Positions 3 through 29,710 of a stretch of DNA of 29,710 bases are shown here, one piece after another. Under the pieces are notes generated by a model. That model was not told the DNA's origin, searched no databases, and was given only the letters and a program-made list of their open reading frames with translations. The translations under genes were made by a program, and so were the position numbers. Location: the IMG/VR virus record IMGVR_UViG_3300046463_000079, positions 1-29,710 of that record. One strand, given 5' to 3'. This DNA is from a virus. How positions within the stretch are numbered: the first letter of the stretch is position 1; every line of letters begins with the position of its first letter.

Positions 3-1448
3 GGGCCGCAGACGATGGCGTACGAGTCCACGGCCGACGTGATCGGATTCGGTGGCGCGGCCGGCGGCGGCAAGACCGATCTGGCGATTGGCAAGGCGCT
101 GACGCAGCACAAAAAGTGCATCGTCGTGCGGAAGAACGGGACCGAGCACGTCGGCATGGTCGACCGTATGGGCGAACTGCTCGGCAATCGCGATGGATGG
201 AGTTCGAAGGATGGGATCTGGCGCCTGCCCGATGTGCAGGTTGAGTTCGGCTCAGTGCCGAATATGGGCGACGAGCAGAAGTATCGCGGCCGCCCGCACG
301 ACCTGATCATCTACGACGAAGCCGCGGAGATCCCGCAAATACAGATCCGCTTCCTGATGGCGTGGAACCGGACCACGGACCCGAAGCAGAAGTGTCAGAC
401 CCTGCTCACGTTCAACCCGCCTTCATCCGCAGAGGGCCGCTGGCTGATCGAGTTCTTCGCACCTTGGCTCGATCGCAAGTACCCCGGCAAGCGCGCCGTG
501 CCGGGTGAACTACGCTGGTTCGCCACGGTCGACGGCCACGATATCGAAGTCGCAGACAGCACGCCGTTCGAGCACGGTGGCGAACTCGTGATACCGCGCT
601 CGCGCACGTTCATTCCCTCACGCGTGACAGACAACCCGCACCTGGTGGGCACGAACTACGTGTCGCAACTCCAGGCGCTGCCTGAACCACTGCGTTCGCA
701 GATGCTGTACGGCTCATTCGAGGCAGGCATGGAAGACGACGCAATGCAGTTGATCCCGACCGAGTGGGTCGATATCGCAATGGCTCGGTGGGAAAAGCGC
801 GAAGCCAAACCGCCTATGGACTCGATGGGCGTGGACGTGGCGCGCGGCGGGCGTGACAACACGATCATCGCGCGCCGCCACGGCATGTGGTTCGACGAAG
901 CGATCGTCAAGCCCGGCAGCGCGACGCCTGACGGCCCGACCGTGGCCGGCTACACGATCGCCGCGCTGCGCGACGGCGCACCGATCCACATCGACGTGAT
1001 CGGTGTTGGCTCGTCGCCGTATGACTTCCTGAACCAGATGAGCGTTCAGGTGTACGGCGTGAACGTGTCGGAAGCTGCGCGCGGTGTGGACAAGTCGGGC
1101 AAGCTGCGGTTCTTCAACCTGCGCACCGAACTGTGGTGGCGCATGCGCGAGGCGCTGGACCCGCTCGCGAACAACGGCATAGCCCTACCCCCTGACAAGC
1201 GTCTCGCGGCCGATCTGTGCGCCCCCAAGTGGCGCGTGCAGGGCAAAACAGTCCAGGTCGAATCCCGCGAAGACATCGAGAAGCGCATCAAGCGGTCCCC
1301 TGATTGGGCATCTGCTTACGTGCTCGCATTGATCGACACGCCCAAGCTGGCTGACCTTACGCGTAACCATACCGCGCGACACGCCGAATACGATCCGTAC
1401 GCATATTCGATGCCTCGCAACCGTGGCGAGCACAACCCGTACGCGTAG
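3..1448 (+). CDS. terL: Terminase large subunit, ATPase/nuclease (5' end cut by window)
   Basis: This is the DNA-packaging motor that docks on the portal, pumps DNA with ATP and cuts the concatemer. Numbering from the first ATG (position 15), a Walker A loop GGAAGGGKT lies at residues 13-21 (K20). The Walker B acids are D101-E102 in LIIYDEAAE, and the coupling motif LLTFNPP is at 130-136. The C-terminal RNase H-like nuclease has candidate acids D274 (GVDVARGG), D327 (IDVIGVG) and D430 (SPDWASAY). The frame stays open to the window edge, giving GPQT before the ATG. Packaging ATPases usually have more sequence before Walker A, so I infer that the true start lies upstream, with a small terminase before it. 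Six bases separate its stop from the next ATG. Confidence 0.95.
   Translation, partial: GPQTMAYESTADVIGFGGAAGGGKTDLAIGKALTQHKKCIVVRKNGTEHVGMVDRMGELLGNRDGWSSKDGIWRLPDVQVEFGSVPNMGDEQKYRGRPHDLIIYDEAAEIPQIQIRFLMAWNRTTDPKQKCQTLLTFNPPSSAEGRWLIEFFAPWLDRKYPGKRAVPGELRWFATVDGHDIEVADSTPFEHGGELVIPRSRTFIPSRVTDNPHLVGTNYVSQLQALPEPLRSQMLYGSFEAGMEDDAMQLIPTEWVDIAMARWEKREAKPPMDSMGVDVARGGRDNTIIARRHGMWFDEAIVKPGSATPDGPTVAGYTIAALRDGAPIHIDVIGVGSSPYDFLNQMSVQVYGVNVSEAARGVDKSGKLRFFNLRTELWWRMREALDPLANNGIALPPDKRLAADLCAPKWRVQGKTVQVESREDIEKRIKRSPDWASAYVLALIDTPKLADLTRNHTARHAEYDPYAYSMPRNRGEHNPYA
1362..1376 (+). repeat. Repeated motif CGTAACCATACCGCG, copy 1
   Basis: Identical 15-mer to 19453-19467. It lies inside the 3' end of the terminase gene, 78 bp before the GNAT-like start. 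Being coding sequence, it may be coincidental. Confidence 0.3.
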
Positions 1449-4859: not shown

Positions 4860-4871
4860 CGTAACCATACC
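4860..4871 (+). repeat. Repeated motif CGTAACCATACC, copy 2
   Basis: The 12-mer CGTAACCATACC occurs here, at 1362-1373 and at 19453-19464, always on the plus strand and 40-92 bp before a gene start. This copy begins two bases after a stop codon and precedes the Bbp19-like gene. It could be a binding site or promoter part; nothing in the sequence proves this. Confidence 0.35.
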
Positions 4872-4901
4872 TCAAACCCGTGCCCTTATTCTCCGCTCAC
4901 G

Positions 4902-5237
4902 ATGACCGACGACTTTAATCCGACTGATCTCGCGGCCCTGGACGTGGCGCGTAGTACTGCTAAAGAGCAGTCGAAGTTCGAAGCCGCGGTCGAGATGGAC
5001 GATATCCGCTGGCTCATGAGCGGCAAACGCGGCCGTCGGCTCATGTGGCGCCTGCTCGGCGACGCAAGGCTGTACCAGCAGTCGTTCGACGGCAATGCGA
5101 ACTGGTCGATTTTCAACGAAGGCAAACGCAGCATTGCGCTAAAGCTCATGGCTCAGATCCATTCGATCGAAGGCGGCCTCGAACTCTACGCGCAGATGGC
5201 GACTGAAGCGCAGGTAAAGGAAAAACCAAATGGCTGA
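4902..5237 (+). CDS. Bbp19-family protein
   Basis: A 111-residue protein resembling Bbp19 of Bordetella phage BPP-1. The characteristic segment is DDIRWLMSGKRGRRLMWRLLGDARLYQQSF (about 33-62), followed by FNEGKRSIALKLMAQI. It is helical and basic in the middle. Its function is unknown; the conserved position between portal and scaffold suggests a head-assembly role. An upstream in-frame ATG at 4815 would lie inside the previous gene and add a low-complexity, unrelated N-terminus, so 4902 (MTDDFNPTDL) is preferred. No clear Shine-Dalgarno sequence precedes 4902 (CTCCGCTCACG), which is unusual among these late genes. The scaffold start overlaps its end by 8 bp. Confidence 0.8.
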   Translation: MTDDFNPTDLAALDVARSTAKEQSKFEAAVEMDDIRWLMSGKRGRRLMWRLLGDARLYQQSFDGNANWSIFNEGKRSIALKLMAQIHSIEGGLELYAQMATEAQVKEKPNG

Positions 5238-5883
5238 CCCCATCACTGATAGCCAGGCGGCACCGGCAGACGCGACCAGCACGACGGCAAGCCCCGCCGA
5301 TGCATCGCAGAGCCAGGCGGCAACGCCCGAAGCCAGCACTACGCCGGCAACGAGCGCCGAAGCAAAGCCAGCCGATGCAGCGAAACCGGAAGACAAACCG
5401 GTCGAAGCCGCAAAGGAAGTCGTCTACGAATTCAAGCTGCCCGAAGGTGTGGAGTTCAAGGGCGAATTGCTGGACGAGTTGAAGACGACGGCGAAGGAAC
5501 TCGGCTTGACGCAGGAGCAGGCGCAGCGTGTCGCAGATCTTGGCGCCAAACAGGCGCAAGGGTTCGCGGCGCAGCTGATCGAGCAGCAGAAAACGATGAC
5601 CGCCGAGTGGGCTGAACAGACCACGACGGACAAGGAAATCGGTGGCGACAAGCTGCCGGAAAACCTGGGCGTCGCGAAGAAGGCGCTCGATTCGTTCGGT
5701 ACTCCTGCGTTGAAAACGCTGCTGAATCAAAGCGGCCTTGGCAATCACCCGGAAGTCGTCCGGTTCATGGTCAAGGCAGGCAAGGCAATCAGTGAGGACG
5801 GCCACCTCGTGACAGGTGCAGCGGCGCAGGCAGATCGCGCCAATACGCCGATCGAGAACCGTCTCTATCCGAACCAGAAATAA
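5230..5883 (+). CDS. Head scaffolding protein
   Basis: A 217-residue, highly charged helical protein directly before the major capsid gene, the usual place for a scaffold. Residues 1-60 are a low-complexity Ala/Thr/Glu/Pro tract, probably disordered. Residues about 65-130 (EFKLPEGVEFKGELLDELK, then TTAKELGLTQEQAQRVADLG) form a predicted coiled coil typical of phage scaffolds. The C-terminal part (GTPALKTLLNQSGLGNHPEV, then VRFMVKAGKAISEDG) is a conserved segment in podophage scaffold proteins. It would template procapsid assembly and then leave the head. The ribosome site AAAGGA sits 8 bp before the ATG. No protease motif was found. Confidence 0.85.
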   Translation: MADPITDSQAAPADATSTTASPADASQSQAATPEASTTPATSAEAKPADAAKPEDKPVEAAKEVVYEFKLPEGVEFKGELLDELKTTAKELGLTQEQAQRVADLGAKQAQGFAAQLIEQQKTMTAEWAEQTTTDKEIGGDKLPENLGVAKKALDSFGTPALKTLLNQSGLGNHPEVVRFMVKAGKAISEDGHLVTGAAAQADRANTPIENRLYPNQK

Positions 5884-13737: not shown

Positions 13738-16700
13738 ATGGCTGACCTGATTGTCCCGGATTCCGGCACCTCGTTCGAAGGCAAGGTAACGCCGCAAGCC
13801 GCGCCGGTCAGCGTTGACCCGGCGCCGACCACGGTCCCGAATCCGTTCATCCCGGATGCAAAGCCCGCGCCGACGCCCGCAGTCAGCCCGGCGACTGCGT
13901 ATCTGCAGAGCACCGCGCAGACCGCGCAAAGCAATATCGCGCTGGCCGTTGGCGCGAACCCGGATTACGAAGCCGAAATGCAGCGGCTCGCGCAGCAGAC
14001 CGGCACGCCGGTCGACAGCGTGAAAGCGTTCCCCGACACGGTGAAGCAGAAAGCCGCCGTCAACAGCATCGACTTCCAGAACCTCGCGAAGCAGTTCCCG
14101 ACCACGGCCGCGTTCTACCAGTCGCAGAACAACGCGAAGATCGCGCACGACGACGTGGGCGGCTTGCAGTCGGTCGAGCAGGCAACGAGCGCGCTCGGCC
14201 CGGCTGGCAATACCGTGCCGCTCGCGCCGGGCACGACGGGCTATTTCCAGCCCGACAACAGCGCGTTGCCGCTGCGTGAACGCCTGATCAATTGGGGGCG
14301 CAACCTGTTCGGCATGGGCGACGCGGTGCCCACTGGCAACGCCCAGGGCGCGGGCAGCGCGCAGGCGTTCATCCAGAACTACGCGAAACAGAACGGGATG
14401 ACCGTCGGCGAGGCGCGCGACGCCGTGGGCGGCGCTTCGGAAATCCCGACGCAGTTCGCGCAGGGCTTCGAGAACGCGTTCACTGCCGGGCTCGCGCCCG
14501 ATGTAAACGGTCCGGCGCAGACGACGGCGGGCGGTGTCGCGAGCGGCGCAGGTAATCTCGCCGGCTTCATCGCGGGCGCACCCCTGAAACTCGGCGCGGC
14601 GGCGGTCGAAAAGATCGGCGGTTCGTTGCTCGAACATGCGGCCGGCGAATCGTTCGCGAAGGCCGCGGCTAAAGACGTGATCGGCCAGGCATCCACGCTG
14701 GGGCTCGCGAGCGCGCTGACCGCAACCGGTGACGCGCTGAACCAGAACAGCCCCGAAGCAGCGCTGACGACGATCGGCCTGCAGGGTCTGCACGGTGCCG
14801 AAATGGGCGGCGTATTCGGCGCGGCCGGGCGCATCCTGCCCGATGCGACTGCTGCGCAGACGCTCGCGCGCGTAGTCGGCGTGAACGCGGCGATGGACGC
14901 GATCCAGGGCTCGACGCCGTGGGATAGCCGCACGACCGCACAGAAGGTCATGGATTACGGTCTGAACTCCGTGTTCGCGCTGCACGGCGCGGGCCGCGCG
15001 ACGGGCGCGTGGCTGACGGACGCCGCGCGCGCTGATGTCGCAATGGGCGACGCGCAGACGCTCACGGATCTCGCCACGTCGGCGGCAAACTCGAAGCTGC
15101 GCCCGCGCGACCCGCAGGCGTTCAAGGATTTCGTGGCCACGGCCAACGCAGACGGCCCGGTGCAAAACGTGTACGTGGACGGTGCGACGCTCGCGAACGC
15201 GCTGAACCAGACGGGCGTGAAGATCGGCGATGTCGAAGCGACCATGCCGCGAGTTGCGCAGCAGTTGCCCGAAGCGCTCGCCACCGGCGGCGATGTGTCG
15301 ATCCCGGTCGAAGACTTCGCGACGCACATCGCGGGCGGCCCGATGCAGGACGTGCTTATGCCGCACCTGAAGACGGACCCGGACGGCATGACGCAGCAGC
15401 AGGCGCAGGAGTTCTACCAGTCGCACGTCGACACGTTCAAGCAGGCGCAGGAGACGGCCAGCGCGGATAAGGCAAACGACGACGCGGTGGCGCAGTCCGC
15501 ACAGGTCGTGCATGACGTGGTGTTCGACCAGCTCACGCAGGCGAACCGCTTCCGGCCGGACGTGAACAAGGTGTATGCCGCGCTCGTGCGCGACAGCTAC
15601 ACTGCAGCCGGCGCACGCGCGGGCCTGTCGCCCGAATCGATGTACACGAAATACCCGCTGCAGATCACCGCCGAAGATGCGCCGGGCGCGAACGCGTTGT
15701 CGCAGGAAGCGCGCGGCAAGATGTCATTCTCCGACGACATCACCAGCGCGCCGAGCACGATCACGCTGAACAAGGACGCAGATCTCTCGACGTTCGTGCA
15801 CGAGCTGGGGCACTTCCACCTGGAAATGCTCAGCCACATGGCGAAGGATGGCATGCTGCCGGAAGTCAGCAAGGACTTCGACACCGTGGCGCAGTGGATG
15901 GGCACGACGCCGGAAGCCTGGCGCGGCATGTCGCTCGAAGAAAAGCGCGACATGCACGAGCAATTCGCACGCGGCTTCGAATCGTACCTGTTCGAAGGCA
16001 AAGCCCCGACACCGGAACTGCAGGGCGTGTTCCAGCGCGTGCGCGCGTGGATGATCAACGTGTATCGCTCGCTGCAGAACCTGGGCGTGCAACTGTCGCC
16101 CGAAGTGCGCGGAGTGTTCGACCGGCTGCTCGCGACGAATGACGCGATCCGCAGCGCCGAAGCCGAGCGCGCGTACACGCCGATGTTCCGCACGCCCGAA
16201 GAAGCGAACATGTCGCCGGAAGAATTCCAGGCGTACCACGCGCTCGGCAACGAAGCGACGCTCGAAGCCTCGGACGAGCTGACTGCGCGCACGCTGCGCG
16301 ACATGCGCTTCACCGAGATCGCGAAGGAACGCGCGAGCAAGGAAGTGAAAGCTGACGTTGCCGCCAAGCGCGCCGCGATCCGCGAACAGGTGAAAGATGA
16401 CGTTGCCAGGGAACCGGTCTACGCCGCGCAGGATTTCATGCTCGGGCAGGCGAACAAAGAAAATCAGGTGCCCGCCGACATCGTGGCCGAGCGTTTCGGC
16501 TTTGCGAACGCCGACGAAATGACGAAGGCAATTGCCGACGCGGAGCCGCGCCGCGAAGTCGTCGAAGCGCTGACCGACCAGCGCATGCTGGAAAAGTACG
16601 GCGATATAACGTCACCGCAGGCAATGAACGCCGCGGCGAATCAGGCGATCCACAACGAAGTTCGCACGCGTTTCATCGCGACCGAATACAAGGCGCTGAC

Positions 16701-19452
16701 GAAAGCGACGGGCGGCGTGCGCGTGCTCGAAAAGGCTGCTAAAGCCGCAGCCGAGACGGTCATCGCGAAGGCGCGCGTGCGCGACATCAACGCGTCGAAG
16801 TACGGCGCGGCCGAAGCGCGCGCCGGCAAAGCCGCCGATGCCGCCCGGCTCAAAGGTGATCTGACCGAAGCCGCGCAGCAGAAGCGCAATCAGCTGCTGA
16901 ACAACCAGCTTGAGAAGACCGCGCGCGCCGCGGCGGCCGAAGTGCTGAAATCGCTGCAGTACCTGAAGAAGTTCAACAAGGAAAGCGTACGCGGCAAGCT
17001 CGACGTAGACGTGCGCGACCAGATCGACGACATGCTCGCGCGCTTCGATCTGCGCACGAACCCGGTCGATACGCCGACGCGTCAGCAGGTCAATCTCGAA
17101 CGCTGGGTCGAATCGCAGAACGCGCTCGGCATGGCGCCGAACGTGTCGCCCGACATGCTCAACGCGGCATTCCGGACGCCGTACCGCGACATGACAATGG
17201 AGCAGTTCCGCGGCCTTACCGACGCGGTGCAGTCGCTCGAAAAGATCGGCCGCGACCGTAAGACCGCGATGATCAACGGCGAGAAGCAGGACATCCAGCA
17301 GTACGTCACCGAGCATCTGATCCCGAAGATGCAGGCGCGCGGCGATCAGTTCAGCGACGCCGAGATATTCGACAAGCCGAGCGACCGCAGCAATAACCCG
17401 TTCCGGATTGCGCTCGATCACCTGACCTCGCAGCTCCGCGCGATCCGCGTCCAGCTCAAGCCGCAGGAATACAAGCGCAACCAGTACGACATGCATGAGT
17501 TGCTCGGCCCGTTCGGCGAAGCGATCTATGAGCCGGTGTTCCGTGCGAACTACCACGAAGTCGACATGCTGAAGGGTATGTCCGACGACTTCCAGAAGAT
17601 GGCCGACCACCTTGGCCGCGAGTGGCAAGACAGCCTGCGCGACGGCGTGCCGAATACCCGGCTGATGGACGTGAACCGCAGCACAGACGGGCAGCAGGTT
17701 CCGTTGCGCATGACGCGCGGGAAGATGATCGGCATCGCCCTGCACGTCGGCAACGAGTCGAACTTCGACAAGATGACGCAGGGCTGGAAGTGGAACCAGC
17801 AGGACGTGTGGCGTTTCCTGCACGACAACATGACCGAGAAAGACTGGCAGGCCGTGCAGTCGGTGTGGGACCAGTACGATAAGCACTGGCCCGACATGGC
17901 CGCAATGAATCAGCGTCTCGGCAACACGTCGCCCGAGCGCATCGAGCCGCGCGCCTTCAAGACGAAATTCGGCGAGCAGCGCGGCGGCTATGCCGCGATC
18001 AAGTACGATCCGCTGCGCTCGCGTCGCGGCGAGAAGGAAGCCGCCGGCCGCGCGATCGACCCGGGCGAGGGTCTGTTCGGCAAGTCGTATTATCGGCCCG
18101 ACACCACGACGAACGGTTCGCTGAACGCGCGGAACCAGGGGTACACCGACGTGGTGGATCTCGACTTCCACACGATCCCGCAAACGATGACCGAATCGAT
18201 TCACGATCTCGCGTATCGCGAAGCGCTGATCGACGTGCACAAGATCATCACGAATGGCGATTTCCGCCGGCAGTTTCAGAAGACCTACGGGCCGGAAGCG
18301 TACCGCTCGTTGCAGGAGTGGCTGGGCAAGGTGGCGAACGCCGACAATCAGGACCGCGAAATCGGTGCGCTCGGCAAGGTGCTGCAGTATTCGCGCACCG
18401 GGCTTGTGATCAACGGCATCGCGTTCCGGATCTCGACCGTGCTCAAGCACGGCGGCTCGGCGGCGATCAAGACGGGCGGGTACTTCACTGGCGGCGGTGA
18501 AAAGTTCCTCGCGCGGCGCTTCGCCGCAATGGGCACGAACTACGCCGCCGAGATCCGCGGAGCGCAGGAGAAATTCCCCGAGATCCGCGCACGCCTGCTG
18601 CAGCAGGACCGCGACTTCCGCGCGATGTCGGCGAACCTGTTCGAGCCAGAAAGCAAGATCAGCAAGGCCGAGCGCTTCGGCCACGCCGCGGTCGCATGGT
18701 CCGACATGATGACGGCCGTACCGACGGCGTGGGCCGCATACGATCGCGCGGTCACGACCGGTATCCCCAAGAACATGGGGGGTACCGGCGAGCCGATGAC
18801 AGAAGAACAGGCCGTCGCGTACGCGAGCAAGGTCGTGCGCGAAGCCCACGGCAGCAACATCACGTCGGCCCGCTCGATGGTGATCAACAACAGTTCCGAA
18901 GCGGTCAAGATGTTCACGACGCTGTACGGCTTCATGAACAACAGCTATGGGCAGGCGGCCGACATCGCTGACAAGCTGAAGACCGCTGGCATTAGCAACC
19001 CGCAGACGCTCGCGCGCGGCTTCATGGCGCTGATCGTGCCGGCGATATGGGCCGGGTACCTGACCGAAGGGCCGCCCAAGGATAAAGACGGTTGGGCGCA
19101 CTGGATCGCGAAGTCGATCGGGGTTGAAGTCGCCGGCATGGTCCCGTTCGTGCGCGATGCTGCGGCGATGGTCGAAGGTTACAGCCACGCGGGGCAAGTC
19201 GGTGTCGAATCGTTCCTTAACACGCTCGTCGGCGCAGGCAAGGATGTCTACCACCTGGCGACCGGTCAGCACGTGAACGCGCCGATTAAGGACATCGCGA
19301 ACGCGGTCGGCATGGGCCTGCACATTCCGGGGCTCGGTCAGGCCGGCGGATCGGCGCAGTACCTGGCCGATGTGGCAAGCGGAAAACAGCGCCCGAAGGA
19401 CGCGCTCGACGTGGCCGAAGGCGTGGCGCTGGGGCGCGCTCCGAAGCACTGA
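13738..19452 (+). CDS. Giant ejected virion protein with HELGH zincin motif (T7 gp16 analogue)
   Basis: A 1904-residue protein, the largest in the window, placed where T7 encodes gp16. It resembles phage 'large polyvalent protein' chains. Residues 1-400 are Ala/Gly-rich with several helices. Residues 684-700 read STFVHELGHFHLEMLSH: H688-E689-x-x-H692 is a zinc metallopeptidase signature. E-rich MHEQFARGFESYLFEGKAPT (about 740-760) follows, and could supply the third ligand. Residues about 850-1080 are charged coiled coil. The C-terminal 360 residues (QYSRTGLVINGIAFRIST near 1550, ARGFMALIVPAIWAGYL near 1760) hold hydrophobic helices suited to crossing the inner membrane. It has no transglycosylase motif. 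It starts right after the previous TAA. Confidence 0.85.
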   Translation: MADLIVPDSGTSFEGKVTPQAAPVSVDPAPTTVPNPFIPDAKPAPTPAVSPATAYLQSTAQTAQSNIALAVGANPDYEAEMQRLAQQTGTPVDSVKAFPDTVKQKAAVNSIDFQNLAKQFPTTAAFYQSQNNAKIAHDDVGGLQSVEQATSALGPAGNTVPLAPGTTGYFQPDNSALPLRERLINWGRNLFGMGDAVPTGNAQGAGSAQAFIQNYAKQNGMTVGEARDAVGGASEIPTQFAQGFENAFTAGLAPDVNGPAQTTAGGVASGAGNLAGFIAGAPLKLGAAAVEKIGGSLLEHAAGESFAKAAAKDVIGQASTLGLASALTATGDALNQNSPEAALTTIGLQGLHGAEMGGVFGAAGRILPDATAAQTLARVVGVNAAMDAIQGSTPWDSRTTAQKVMDYGLNSVFALHGAGRATGAWLTDAARADVAMGDAQTLTDLATSAANSKLRPRDPQAFKDFVATANADGPVQNVYVDGATLANALNQTGVKIGDVEATMPRVAQQLPEALATGGDVSIPVEDFATHIAGGPMQDVLMPHLKTDPDGMTQQQAQEFYQSHVDTFKQAQETASADKANDDAVAQSAQVVHDVVFDQLTQANRFRPDVNKVYAALVRDSYTAAGARAGLSPESMYTKYPLQITAEDAPGANALSQEARGKMSFSDDITSAPSTITLNKDADLSTFVHELGHFHLEMLSHMAKDGMLPEVSKDFDTVAQWMGTTPEAWRGMSLEEKRDMHEQFARGFESYLFEGKAPTPELQGVFQRVRAWMINVYRSLQNLGVQLSPEVRGVFDRLLATNDAIRSAEAERAYTPMFRTPEEANMSPEEFQAYHALGNEATLEASDELTARTLRDMRFTEIAKERASKEVKADVAAKRAAIREQVKDDVAREPVYAAQDFMLGQANKENQVPADIVAERFGFANADEMTKAIADAEPRREVVEALTDQRMLEKYGDITSPQAMNAAANQAIHNEVRTRFIATEYKALTKATGGVRVLEKAAKAAAETVIAKARVRDINASKYGAAEARAGKAADAARLKGDLTEAAQQKRNQLLNNQLEKTARAAAAEVLKSLQYLKKFNKESVRGKLDVDVRDQIDDMLARFDLRTNPVDTPTRQQVNLERWVESQNALGMAPNVSPDMLNAAFRTPYRDMTMEQFRGLTDAVQSLEKIGRDRKTAMINGEKQDIQQYVTEHLIPKMQARGDQFSDAEIFDKPSDRSNNPFRIALDHLTSQLRAIRVQLKPQEYKRNQYDMHELLGPFGEAIYEPVFRANYHEVDMLKGMSDDFQKMADHLGREWQDSLRDGVPNTRLMDVNRSTDGQQVPLRMTRGKMIGIALHVGNESNFDKMTQGWKWNQQDVWRFLHDNMTEKDWQAVQSVWDQYDKHWPDMAAMNQRLGNTSPERIEPRAFKTKFGEQRGGYAAIKYDPLRSRRGEKEAAGRAIDPGEGLFGKSYYRPDTTTNGSLNARNQGYTDVVDLDFHTIPQTMTESIHDLAYREALIDVHKIITNGDFRRQFQKTYGPEAYRSLQEWLGKVANADNQDREIGALGKVLQYSRTGLVINGIAFRISTVLKHGGSAAIKTGGYFTGGGEKFLARRFAAMGTNYAAEIRGAQEKFPEIRARLLQQDRDFRAMSANLFEPESKISKAERFGHAAVAWSDMMTAVPTAWAAYDRAVTTGIPKNMGGTGEPMTEEQAVAYASKVVREAHGSNITSARSMVINNSSEAVKMFTTLYGFMNNSYGQAADIADKLKTAGISNPQTLARGFMALIVPAIWAGYLTEGPPKDKDGWAHWIAKSIGVEVAGMVPFVRDAAAMVEGYSHAGQVGVESFLNTLVGAGKDVYHLATGQHVNAPIKDIANAVGMGLHIPGLGQAGGSAQYLADVASGKQRPKDALDVAEGVALGRAPKH

Positions 19453-19467
19453 CGTAACCATACCGCG
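19453..19467 (+). promoter_or_regulatory. Repeated motif CGTAACCATACCGCG, copy 3 (possible regulatory site)
   Basis: This 15-mer is identical to 1362-1376 inside the terminase gene and shares 12 bases with 4860-4871. It lies in the gap before the tailspike. CTGACG (19449-19454) and TCAAAT (19473-19478), 18 bases apart, would make a weak sigma70-like promoter overlapping the motif, which could give the tailspike its own transcript. The support is slight. Confidence 0.25.
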
Positions 19468-19483
19468 TTGTTTCAAATAGAGA

Positions 19484-19512
19484 ATCCGTGCATCTCAAAG
19501 GGGTGCACGGAT
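19484..19512 (+). promoter_or_regulatory. Hairpin sequestering the tailspike ribosome site and start codon
   Basis: ATCCGTGCA (19484-19492) and TGCACGGAT (19504-19512) are perfect 9-bp complements. The inner bases TCTC and GGGG can add four more pairs (two G-U), leaving an AAA loop. The Shine-Dalgarno AAAGGGG (19497-19503) and the first two bases of the ATG (19511) therefore lie inside one 13-bp stem. No T-run follows, so it is not a terminator. It should limit translation of the tailspike unless opened. Confidence 0.75.
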
Positions 19513-21772
19513 GACTATTTCGAGCGCTGTGCGCAAAGCGGGACCGTTCGCAGGTAACGCCACGGCAACAGTATTCCCGTTCGCGTTCAAGGTTTTTACA
19601 AAGAACGACATCAAGGTTGTGCGTACCGATGCGCTCGCGAATGAGACGACATTGGTTCTCGACTCTGATTATTCCGTCGCGCTCAACACGAACCAGGATA
19701 CAAACCCTGGCGGCTCGATCACTTATCCGATCATCGGTTCCCCGCTGCCGGTGGGGTTGTCTCTCGTGCTGCTCGGTGAACTCGCGTACGACCAGCCGAC
19801 CGATATAACGAACAGTGGCGGGTTCTATCCGAACGTCGTTGAGGACATGTCGGATCGTTCGACGATCCAGATCCAGCAGCTCGCCGAATGGCTTTCGCGC
19901 GCTATCGTTGTGACCGAAGCTGAAAGCGCCGTCGCGCCTTTGCCGACCGCGCCAAACCGGGCAAACCGGGCGCTGGTATTTAATTCGCTCGGCGTGCCGG
20001 GCGTATCCCCGAGCCCCTATCTGGATTCGTCGGTCATTGTTGACGAAGCTATCGCCGCTGCAAACGATATCGTCGCGGGAATCACTACGCCGACATTTCA
20101 GGCATTCGTCCCGACGGTGCTGCTCAACGGTCCCGACTTCACCGCAGGCACGTCGCAGTCAGTAACGCTGCCTGCCGTCACCGGAAAGGTTATCGCTGGC
20201 GTGTTCATGGACGGCGTCTACCAGTCGAGCACACAGTACACGCTCAATCCCGCCGGCACGCTTCTCACGTTCTCGTCGATCATTCCGGCCGGTATCTCCG
20301 AGATCGATGTCATGTACTACTCGCCGGGTTTGCTCGGCGCGTTTCTTCAGAACGGCTTCGGCGCGGTACCGCGGGCGTTCCAAAGCAAGATGCAGGACGT
20401 GGTAAGCGTGAAGGATTTTGGCGTGAAAGGTGACGGCATCACCGATGACACAGCCACTATCACTACCGCGATAGCCGCCGCGGCGGTATCCGGGTGCGAG
20501 CTGTTCTTCCCGCCGGGCACCTATCTTTGCAGCCCCGACACACCTATTTCTGCGGCCTCGCCGATGAGTATCCGGGGTAGCGGCAAGTACAGCACCATCA
20601 TCAAGACGACGAAACTTAACGCGCAGATATTCAGCTTTTCAGGCCAGTACATAAGCCTTCGTGATTTCCAGCTGTGTGGGCCTGCTGGGGCATCAAGCGG
20701 CACGCTGTTGAATATGAACTGCATCTATGAACAGGTGCAACGGGTCGCGTTCATCAATTATTTCATTGCGCTGAAAGGCACCGGGATTATCGGAAGCTAT
20801 ACCGATTGCGAATGGAATGGGCCACAGAACGCCGCCTCGATCGGCTGGCAGATCGACGGTTACGCGGGCGGCCTGAATGCCTATAACGCGTTCATGTATC
20901 AGCCTGTCATCCAGCCGGCGGCGGGTATTCAGGTGCTTTCAGTTGGCGGGATGCTGGGCGTTAATCTGAATATCGTACGCAACGGCTCGAATTTCTCGGT
21001 ACAACCGCCGAATGGCAAACAGGCAGATTCGATTCAACTGGTTAATTGCTTCCTCGACTCGGCGCAATTCGCCAACCTGTTTGTTGCCCCGCAAGCTGGC
21101 GGCATAGTCAGCCGCATGTACCTGACGCAGGTTGAATGCAGCAGCTCCGACAGTAACGGCATGGTCTTCGATGGGAGCGCCGGCACGATCGACGGCGTAA
21201 CCATCATGTCCGCCCAAGGAAATTTCTGCCATGCGAACGGGATAACGATCAGCGGAGCCAACGCGAAAAACATCGACATTGTGGGTGGGTCGGCCTGTGG
21301 CAACGGCAGCGCGGGGCTGAGCATCGGGTCGAATTCCGTTCGCGTGAATAACCTCGTGGCCGGAGCTGCCTACGGTGCCGTCGGCAATGGCGTAACGGGG
21401 ATAAATCTCGCTGCGGCAACGAGTGGCGTTCAGCTGATCAATTGCACGCTTACCGGGAATGGAACGGGCGCCCCCGGCGTCGCGGGCAACATTGATGGCG
21501 TCCAGATCGTCAACTGTTCCGGTTACGTGAGCGCGAACTCCGGTACTTCGCAGATCGTCGCGGGCAATTCGTCGGTGGTGGTAACACACGGACTAGGGGC
21601 GGGGCCAGTAGCGCAAAGCATTCTTATTTCGCCATTGGGCGCCGCTGGCAGCAACCCGATGTACGTTGACGCCGCGAGCATTACAGCAACGACATTTACA
21701 GTACGCACGGCTTCAGCGGTCGGTTCCACGATCGGATTCGCATGGCGCGCGACATGTAACGGCGTTAGCTGA
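19511..21772 (+). CDS. Tailspike with pectate-lyase-like beta-helix
   Basis: A 753-residue receptor-binding protein. Residues 1-140 (SSAVRKAGPFAGNATATVFPFAF, then KVFTKNDIKVV) are a virion-anchoring head found on many podophage fibres, which also fixes the start at ATG 19511. Residues about 205-275 are a linker domain (VIAGVFMDGVYQSSTQYTLN). From about 294, VVSVKDFGVKGDGITDDT is the entry motif of the pectate-lyase-3 type right-handed beta-helix, running to about 660 with Gly/Asn-rich turns. The C-terminal domain (VVVTHGLGAGPVAQSILISP onward) is beta-rich and probably trimerises or binds sugars. It is inferred to bind and possibly depolymerise a capsule or O-antigen. Catalytic residues cannot be assigned. 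Its start is buried in a hairpin. Confidence 0.88.
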   Translation: MTISSAVRKAGPFAGNATATVFPFAFKVFTKNDIKVVRTDALANETTLVLDSDYSVALNTNQDTNPGGSITYPIIGSPLPVGLSLVLLGELAYDQPTDITNSGGFYPNVVEDMSDRSTIQIQQLAEWLSRAIVVTEAESAVAPLPTAPNRANRALVFNSLGVPGVSPSPYLDSSVIVDEAIAAANDIVAGITTPTFQAFVPTVLLNGPDFTAGTSQSVTLPAVTGKVIAGVFMDGVYQSSTQYTLNPAGTLLTFSSIIPAGISEIDVMYYSPGLLGAFLQNGFGAVPRAFQSKMQDVVSVKDFGVKGDGITDDTATITTAIAAAAVSGCELFFPPGTYLCSPDTPISAASPMSIRGSGKYSTIIKTTKLNAQIFSFSGQYISLRDFQLCGPAGASSGTLLNMNCIYEQVQRVAFINYFIALKGTGIIGSYTDCEWNGPQNAASIGWQIDGYAGGLNAYNAFMYQPVIQPAAGIQVLSVGGMLGVNLNIVRNGSNFSVQPPNGKQADSIQLVNCFLDSAQFANLFVAPQAGGIVSRMYLTQVECSSSDSNGMVFDGSAGTIDGVTIMSAQGNFCHANGITISGANAKNIDIVGGSACGNGSAGLSIGSNSVRVNNLVAGAAYGAVGNGVTGINLAAATSGVQLINCTLTGNGTGAPGVAGNIDGVQIVNCSGYVSANSGTSQIVAGNSSVVVTHGLGAGPVAQSILISPLGAAGSNPMYVDAASITATTFTVRTASAVGSTIGFAWRATCNGVS

Positions 21773-28919: not shown

Positions 28920-29172
28920 GGCGGCGCATTTCCATGCGGGTGAGTTCGAGACTCACCGCTTCAGCCTGGCGGCGCAGTTGCGATTCGCGGCGAACCGTTT
29001 CGCGGCGCACGTCGAACACGTAATCGAGTTCGTGTGTCAGGTGGCGCAACTGGTGGCGCAGTTGCGATTCGCGGCGAACCGTTTCGCGGCGCACGTCGAA
29101 CACGTAATCGAGTTCGTGTGTCAGGTGGCGCAACTGGTGGCGCAGGAAGAAGCGGCGGATCAGGGTTTTCAT
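28912..29172 (-). CDS. 86-residue protein with perfect internal duplication (function unknown)
   Basis: I chose ATG 29172 (MKTLIRRFFLRHQ), one base beyond the stop of the upstream pentapeptide gene; a longer frame would run through that gene. The protein is almost entirely helical and basic. Its core is two identical 28-residue units of sequence LRHLTHELDYVFDVRRET-VRRESQL-type, encoded by an exact 84-bp tandem duplication. Each unit looks amphipathic (hydrophobic L/F/V positions, many Arg/Glu), compatible with a coiled coil or helical hairpin. I do not recognise the family. It overlaps VRR-NUC by 8 bp. Confidence 0.65.
   Translation of the reverse strand: MKTLIRRFFLRHQLRHLTHELDYVFDVRRETVRRESQLRHQLRHLTHELDYVFDVRRETVRRESQLRRQAEAVSLELTRMEMRRHA
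28971..29138 (+). repeat. Perfect 84-bp tandem duplication
   Basis: Copies at 28971-29054 and 29055-29138 are identical over all 84 bases, with seven more matching bases (GGCGCAG) after the second. 84 is a multiple of three, so the reading frame is kept (28 codons). The junction holds an inverted repeat, CGCAACTG-GTGGCG-CAGTTGCG (29045-29066). The lack of any synonymous change indicates a very recent event, or an assembly duplication. Confidence 0.95.
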
Positions 29173-29173
29173 G

Positions 29174-29710
29174 TTAGTAAGCCTCGGCTTCGGCGCGGGT
29201 AATAAAGAAGTGGATACCGTTGGTGCACTCTTCACGGAAGTCCCCGTTGTACGAATCGGGACGAACGATCTCGCCAACGCAGTAAGTAGTCTTGCGGTCA
29301 TGCTGGCTTACCCCTTCGGTGGCGCCGAACAGTTCCAGCACGCGCACGAACTCAGCGCGATTTTTCCGACTGCGTGTCGTCGACGTGCGCTTTGCGTCGG
29401 CGGGTATTTCCAGTTTCGCGATGACGCCGCCTGCGAGCTTTTTCCAGCCGACAAAAGCGCCTTCTTCCGGCACGATCGCGAACGTCAGATTTTTAACTTG
29501 ATCGGTGTTCGCGCCGTACAGGTTCGCGCCGCGCAGGTTCGCGCCGCGCAGGTTCGCGCCGTACAGGTCCGCGCCGCCCAGGTTCGCGCCGCCCAGGTTC
29601 GCGCCGCCCAGGTCCGCGCCGCCCAGGTTCGCGCCGTACAGGTTCGCGCCGTACAGGTTCGCGCCGTACAGGTTCGCGCCGTACAGGTTCGCGCCGTACA
29701 GGTCCGCGCC
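29174..29710 (-). CDS. Pentapeptide-repeat protein (N-terminus beyond window)
   Basis: The frame is open from the right window edge to TAA 29174. About 14 pentapeptides of form A(D/N)L(Y/R/G)G come first: [10 protein letters not shown]..., then [10 protein letters not shown], then [20 protein letters not shown]. They would build a right-handed four-sided beta-helix. The C-terminal domain starts [20 protein letters not shown] and ends [14 protein letters not shown], a module often attached to phage pentapeptide proteins. A GTG at 29473 (in IVPEEG) is not the true start, because the repeats continue upstream in the same frame. Roles of this group are unknown; some other pentapeptide proteins mimic DNA and bind gyrase. 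At least 178 codons are visible. Confidence 0.88.
29507..29710 (+). repeat. 15-bp tandem array encoding pentapeptides
   Basis: Twelve full 15-bp units lie at 29521-29700 with partial units on both sides. The unit is GGTTCGCGCCGTACA with variants (GGTCC for Asp; GCGCA or GCCCA at the end). Five consecutive units from 29626 are identical. The array is in frame with the leftward gene and continues out of the window. It is not a CRISPR array, as it has no spacers. Confidence 0.95.

Follow-up and report, generated by a model that had tools for sequence, protein, structure and literature searches.

The tailspike gene of this phage begins inside a strong hairpin, and its Shine-Dalgarno sequence and start codon are largely enclosed in the stem. 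This raises the question of how the gene would be translated, and from which RNA. The window, which is the whole 29,710-base virus record IMGVR_UViG_3300046463_000079, contains terminase, portal, capsid, tail and other virion genes, the tailspike, a helicase and an integrase. A DNA similarity search with the window gave no match in the phage collection, so its relatives were reached through their proteins. They are BPP-1-like temperate podoviruses, with epsilon15 as a more distant relative, and their hosts include Paraburkholderia, Caballeronia, Achromobacter and Cupriavidus, among others. The start codon of the tailspike has been assigned correctly, since relatives share the N-terminus MTISS..RKAGPF, in which M1 and T2 are invariant. 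The stop codon of the upstream gene ends at 19452, which leaves the leader of 58 bases originally described.

The features of this locus are listed in Table 1. The hairpin (19484–19512) has 13 pairs: the outer nine are Watson-Crick, and the inner four (U-G, C-G, U-G, C-G) include the two G-U pairs. Both the sequence and its computed fold agree with the original prediction of nine perfect and four inner pairs closed by an AAA loop. On the other hand, the Shine-Dalgarno sequence AAAGGGG, which had been placed in the stem arm, is only partly paired: GGGG lies in the stem, its AAA is the loop. Folding of 19453–19560, the check that had been proposed, gives a minimum free energy of -41.9 kcal/mol (z -3.56), and none of 200 dinucleotide shuffles is equally stable. 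The cost of opening the tailspike start is 22.0 kcal/mol, the highest value among 11 gene starts of the window that were compared (2.3–11.2 for the others). It is also the costliest to open among the 28 sites in the window with a Shine-Dalgarno sequence and an ATG. A search of Rfam found no match to a curated covariance model up to E = 5.

Table 1. Position of the hairpin, the two-box element and the neighbouring genes at the tailspike border, and of the other copies of the element in the window.
Feature	Position	Strand	Remarks
Third copy of the element, GTAACCATACC-N15-TACGAT	1363..1394	+	Within the last part of the terminase gene; next gene at 1454
Second copy of the element, GTAACCATACC-N15-TATTCT	4861..4892	+	Right after a stop codon; next ATG at 4902, leaderless-like
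Large virion protein gene	13738..19452	+	1904 aa, LPD22 domain, PHROG 9880; directly upstream of tailspike
Box 1, phage-specific word at the -35 position, GTAACCATACC	19454..19464	+	Also at 1363 and 4861
Spacer	19465..19479	+	15 bases; length fixed, sequence free
Outer stem	19475..19520	+	AAAUAG (19475-19480) with CUAUUU (19515-19520); extends the hairpin, in read-through RNA only
-10-like box, GAGAAT	19480..19485	+	
Hairpin, 5' arm, ATCCGTGCATCTC	19484..19496	+	
Predicted transcription start	19491..19493	+	Inferred; about 7 bases past the -10 box, within the 5' arm
Hairpin, loop, AAA	19497..19499	+	
Hairpin, 3' arm, GGGGTGCACGGAT	19500..19512	+	Includes GGGG of the Shine-Dalgarno sequence and AT of the ATG
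Tailspike gene	19511..21772	+	753 aa; conserved podovirus head, beta-helix PF12708

The leader contains more than a hairpin. We have compared 97 distinct sequences at the border of the tailspike gene: 87 have a spacer, usually of 50–70 bases, and the other 10 have an ATGA overlap. The spacers have a two-part element in common, GT(G/A)CNCNTACC, followed by exactly 15 free bases and then by (T/G)AnnnT. The 15-base gap is kept in about 75 of 82 tailspike leaders, while the stop codon and the ATG lie at variable distances from the element; this is the behaviour of a promoter, not of an RNA motif tied to either gene. Among relatives, the second box has A at position 2 in 95% of cases and T at position 6 in 97%. 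These are the two key bases of the bacterial -10 box. They are also the only conserved part of it, and the GAGAAT of the window is a poor sigma-70 box. The first box stands at the -35 position, yet it holds a different word than the sigma-70 box. A sigma-70 promoter (TTGACA, TATAAT, 16–18 spacing) was sought at the tailspike leader and none was found. The first promoter pattern we used, GTNCNCNTACC, missed the word of the window itself, which was found by a matrix search. We infer that the two-box element represents a family of late promoters, in which each phage would have its own word.

The element is not limited to the tailspike. The window has three copies with GTAACCATACC and BPP-1 has three with GTGCCCGTGCC, and the gene borders at which they lie correspond. 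Most relatives have 3–6 copies of the element per genome, and with few exceptions these lie on the late strand: in the records of 30 relatives, a search with the pattern yields about 90 hits, nearly all of them on this strand, and a search with the reversed pattern about 12. In 25 of the 44 unique copies outside the tailspike leader, an ATG is found 6–10 bases past the -10 box (background 1.3%). This is the place where the start point is expected, so the corresponding RNAs would be leaderless or nearly so, and this suggests that leaderless mRNAs may be the rule for the head and packaging late genes of this phage group. The late genes other than the tailspike had been described as coupled by overlaps, which is not true for all of them, as the gene at 4902 follows the same kind of promoter-like element. 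Copies with a close ATG are found before head and packaging genes at 4861–4902 in the window, at 5380–5418 and 1995–2034 in L124 (BPP-1), and in L128–L166. We have found nothing relevant about BPP-1 late promoters or leaderless late genes in the literature, whose coverage was incomplete.

In order to ascertain whether burial of the start site exceeds chance, the cost of opening the Shine-Dalgarno sequence and AUG in read-through RNA was calculated for 48 non-redundant tailspike leaders. The mean is 12.6 kcal/mol, compared with 8.35±0.32 for shuffles in which the boxes, the Shine-Dalgarno sequence and the coding start are kept and the remainder is shuffled; all 200 null means were below the observed value. 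Individually, 22 of the 48 leaders have p<0.05. The combined Fisher value (p about 2e-16) is a guide only, since the leaders are related and not fully independent, fewer than half are significant alone and several show nothing. Pairing partners upstream of the predicted start are also in excess (7.2, compared with 5.2±0.5 in shuffles). Copies of the element outside the tailspike which have a leader present little burial (8.4 vs. 7.2 for the null), and the hairpin is therefore a feature of the tailspike promoter.

The arms themselves are very heterogeneous: No sequence is shared between relatives, the distance from the promoter differs, loops have from 3 to about 20 bases, and the opening cost ranges from 4 to 26 kcal/mol. 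The hairpin is kept at the tailspike promoter with differing arms across phages, though not in all of them. Compensatory changes, which had been proposed as a check, provide weak evidence within the close group, where two-sided stem changes are few (2 pairs, 4 cells); unrelated arms which still pair are strong evidence. Some relatives do have the same tailspike head and no complementary arms, which the original prediction had named as contrary evidence. Six of them lack a hairpin (L008, L015, L073, L080, L085 and L115), and about ten others have ATGA overlaps and no leader.

The position of the predicted start relative to the arms gives a probable answer to our question. This start is located either within the 5' arm or past it; the ribosome site would then be buried in read-through RNA and free in RNA started locally. 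In fact, the mean opening cost falls to a predicted 6.0 kcal/mol in locally started RNA. In the window, the predicted values for the Shine-Dalgarno sequence and AUG are 21.0 kcal/mol in read-through RNA and 5.9 in locally started RNA. In the group to which the window belongs, the predicted start is within the 5' arm and 4–6 weak pairs remain downstream of it, so that its exact position matters. In other relatives (L119, L086, L094, L074, L033, L013, L092 and BPP-1) the entire 5' arm is upstream of the start, with the -10 box in the hairpin loop.

We consider it probable that a late promoter has been laid over a translation-blocking hairpin, so that translation of the tailspike would be gated by the start site of its RNA. 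The RNA of the upstream virion gene would run on into the tailspike. This putative read-through RNA would carry both arms and fold, with the Shine-Dalgarno sequence and AUG closed, and little tailspike would be made from it. The locally started RNA would begin in the 5' arm, as in the window group, or past the whole arm, as in the other relatives; it would have no blocking strand and would be translated. The amount of tailspike would then depend on the gene's own promoter, and the upstream operon would not set it. The original suggestion that the hairpin holds tailspike translation down is well supported by the predicted burial, conserved with differing arms. The switches it listed (structure, RNA processing, temperature or a protein) do not include the one we favour: with a predicted start point in or beyond the 5' arm, the switch would most likely be the promoter from which the RNA came. 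Nothing in the sequence favours a temperature switch or a protein switch.

Other explanations should be considered. The hairpin might be a plain translational damper on a sole, polycistronic tailspike RNA, with the two-box element serving otherwise and the dose set by hairpin strength, a bound protein or temperature. The Shine-Dalgarno sequence and AUG are strongly buried, the strength of the hairpin differs widely among relatives, as indicated above, and the local transcript start is a predicted one, all of which would suit a damper. Nevertheless, with a lock of 21 kcal/mol that nothing opens, hardly any of this structural protein would be made. Besides, in nearly all leaders with a hairpin most of the 5' arm precedes the predicted start, and the tailspike element is one of a series of late-strand copies whose distance to the ATG is that expected of a promoter. 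We consider a simple damper unlikely, though it deserves some weight.

It is quite unlikely that the hairpin is mainly a terminator or a 3'-end guard for the upstream virion RNA, which would insulate a new unit, with burial of the ribosome site as a by-product. The stem of the window has no U run, nor do those of most relatives, no plus-strand terminator is called at the hairpin, and the 3' arm tracks the Shine-Dalgarno sequence and start codon. The case for it comes from BPP-1, whose hairpin (CCCCTGGGGAAG...CTTCCCCAGGGG, with the -10 box in the loop) is followed by TTTTT in the classic shape of an intrinsic terminator, and from L094 and L040, which have TTTT after the stem. Since the BPP-1 hairpin is terminator-like, insulation may act at both the RNA and the translation level in some members. 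Repressor sites commonly overlap the -10 box and start region, and the palindrome, by its computed position, does so too. It might thus be a DNA operator for a dimeric regulator of the promoter, with no RNA structure involved. This is very improbable: the arms have the heterogeneity in sequence, promoter distance and loop size described above, G-U pairs are used, and the other promoter copies in the same phages have no palindrome.

A late promoter placed over a blocking hairpin has a precedent in phage T4. Long early transcripts close the ribosome site of T4 gene e and lysozyme synthesis is cut about 100-fold, while late promoters in the 5' strand yield open RNA (PMC3014915). In T4 genes e, soc, 49 and I-TevI, the Shine-Dalgarno sequence and/or AUG are closed by a helix in read-through RNA (PMC3014915), as is predicted for the tailspike. 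Our locus would also share with the gene e group a late promoter within the region of the 5' strand and a truncated RNA which can be translated, both of them predicted here: The conserved promoter-like element, with its predicted start, is placed as this type of gating would need. The promoters are different. T4 late promoters have a TATAAATA box (gp55), which we looked for at this locus; GT(G/A)CNCNTACC and (T/G)AnnnT are found instead, with a phage-specific word at the -35 position, so the locus would work like gene e, not with a T4-type late promoter. Unlike gene e, it belongs to unrelated temperate podoviruses, it codes for a tailspike and not a lysozyme, and many unrelated arms are found in two layouts. 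On our best reading, start-site gating, itself known from gene e, would here control a tailspike, in phages unrelated to T4. If this is true, control of the T4 lysozyme type arose independently, with many unrelated arms, and keeps the receptor-binding tailspike under its own promoter.

Two known phages may be compared with the window. The leader of bbp9 in Bordetella phage BPP-1 (NC_005357) has the same gene order and the same two-box element, here GTGCCCGTGCC-N15-TAGCCT. It also has a hairpin, whose loop contains the -10 box and whose 3' arm contains AGGGG. This leader differs in its promoter word and in the five T which end the hairpin, which may also terminate transcription; this putative promoter inside a terminator-like hairpin is found at 19955–19997 of L124. 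On the other hand, tailspike gene 20 of Salmonella phage epsilon15 has a related head (36% identity), and its leader contains no copy of the element. The upstream region is different, with an annotated repressor and an IHF site.

A candidate late factor, which might read box 1, is a protein of 75–86 aa with a single helix-turn-helix. Its gene lies shortly before the terminase genes, and in several phages the first copy of the element comes right after it. Of 30 records, mostly near-complete and mostly with the motif, 29 have this protein; where the motif is absent, most records do not have it. The record of the window is cut inside the terminase and hence cannot show this gene. The protein weakly resembles sigma region 4 and the phage late activator family PHROG 836. 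Distances between recognition helices correlate with distances between promoter words (r 0.29, partial r 0.17), but the correlation is stronger for the N-terminus (r 0.46), so the pattern follows descent and is no proof of a pairing between helix and word. It is found in BPP-1 (bbp27, L126 638–874) and in relatives L174–L221. In BPP-1 it is annotated as an endonuclease; no HNH domain was found in it, despite this annotation. Records L007, L009, L098, L103, L107, L109 and L118 have the same tailspike head with an ATGA overlap and no promoter leader, and in most of them the helix-turn-helix protein is absent or a weaker match.

We may tentatively extend this scheme to the whole late programme, which would tie translation to the start of the RNA: head and packaging genes would be near-leaderless, the tailspike, which has a Shine-Dalgarno sequence, would be locked by its hairpin in RNA started upstream, and all copies would be read through the phage-specific -35 word, possibly by the 75–86 aa protein. 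The BPP-1/epsilon15-like phages of Burkholderia, Achromobacter, Bordetella and others would then have a family of late promoters, with near-leaderless genes, which has apparently not been described before. The presence of a different word in each phage would make the pairing of promoter and factor directly testable.

The window also contains two sets of repeats. An 84-base unit is present at 28966–29133 in two tandem copies, which are 99% identical. Repeats of 15 bases occupy 29477–29710, up to the end of the record, and their minus strand reads as a pentapeptide-repeat protein of the A-N/D-L-x-G type.
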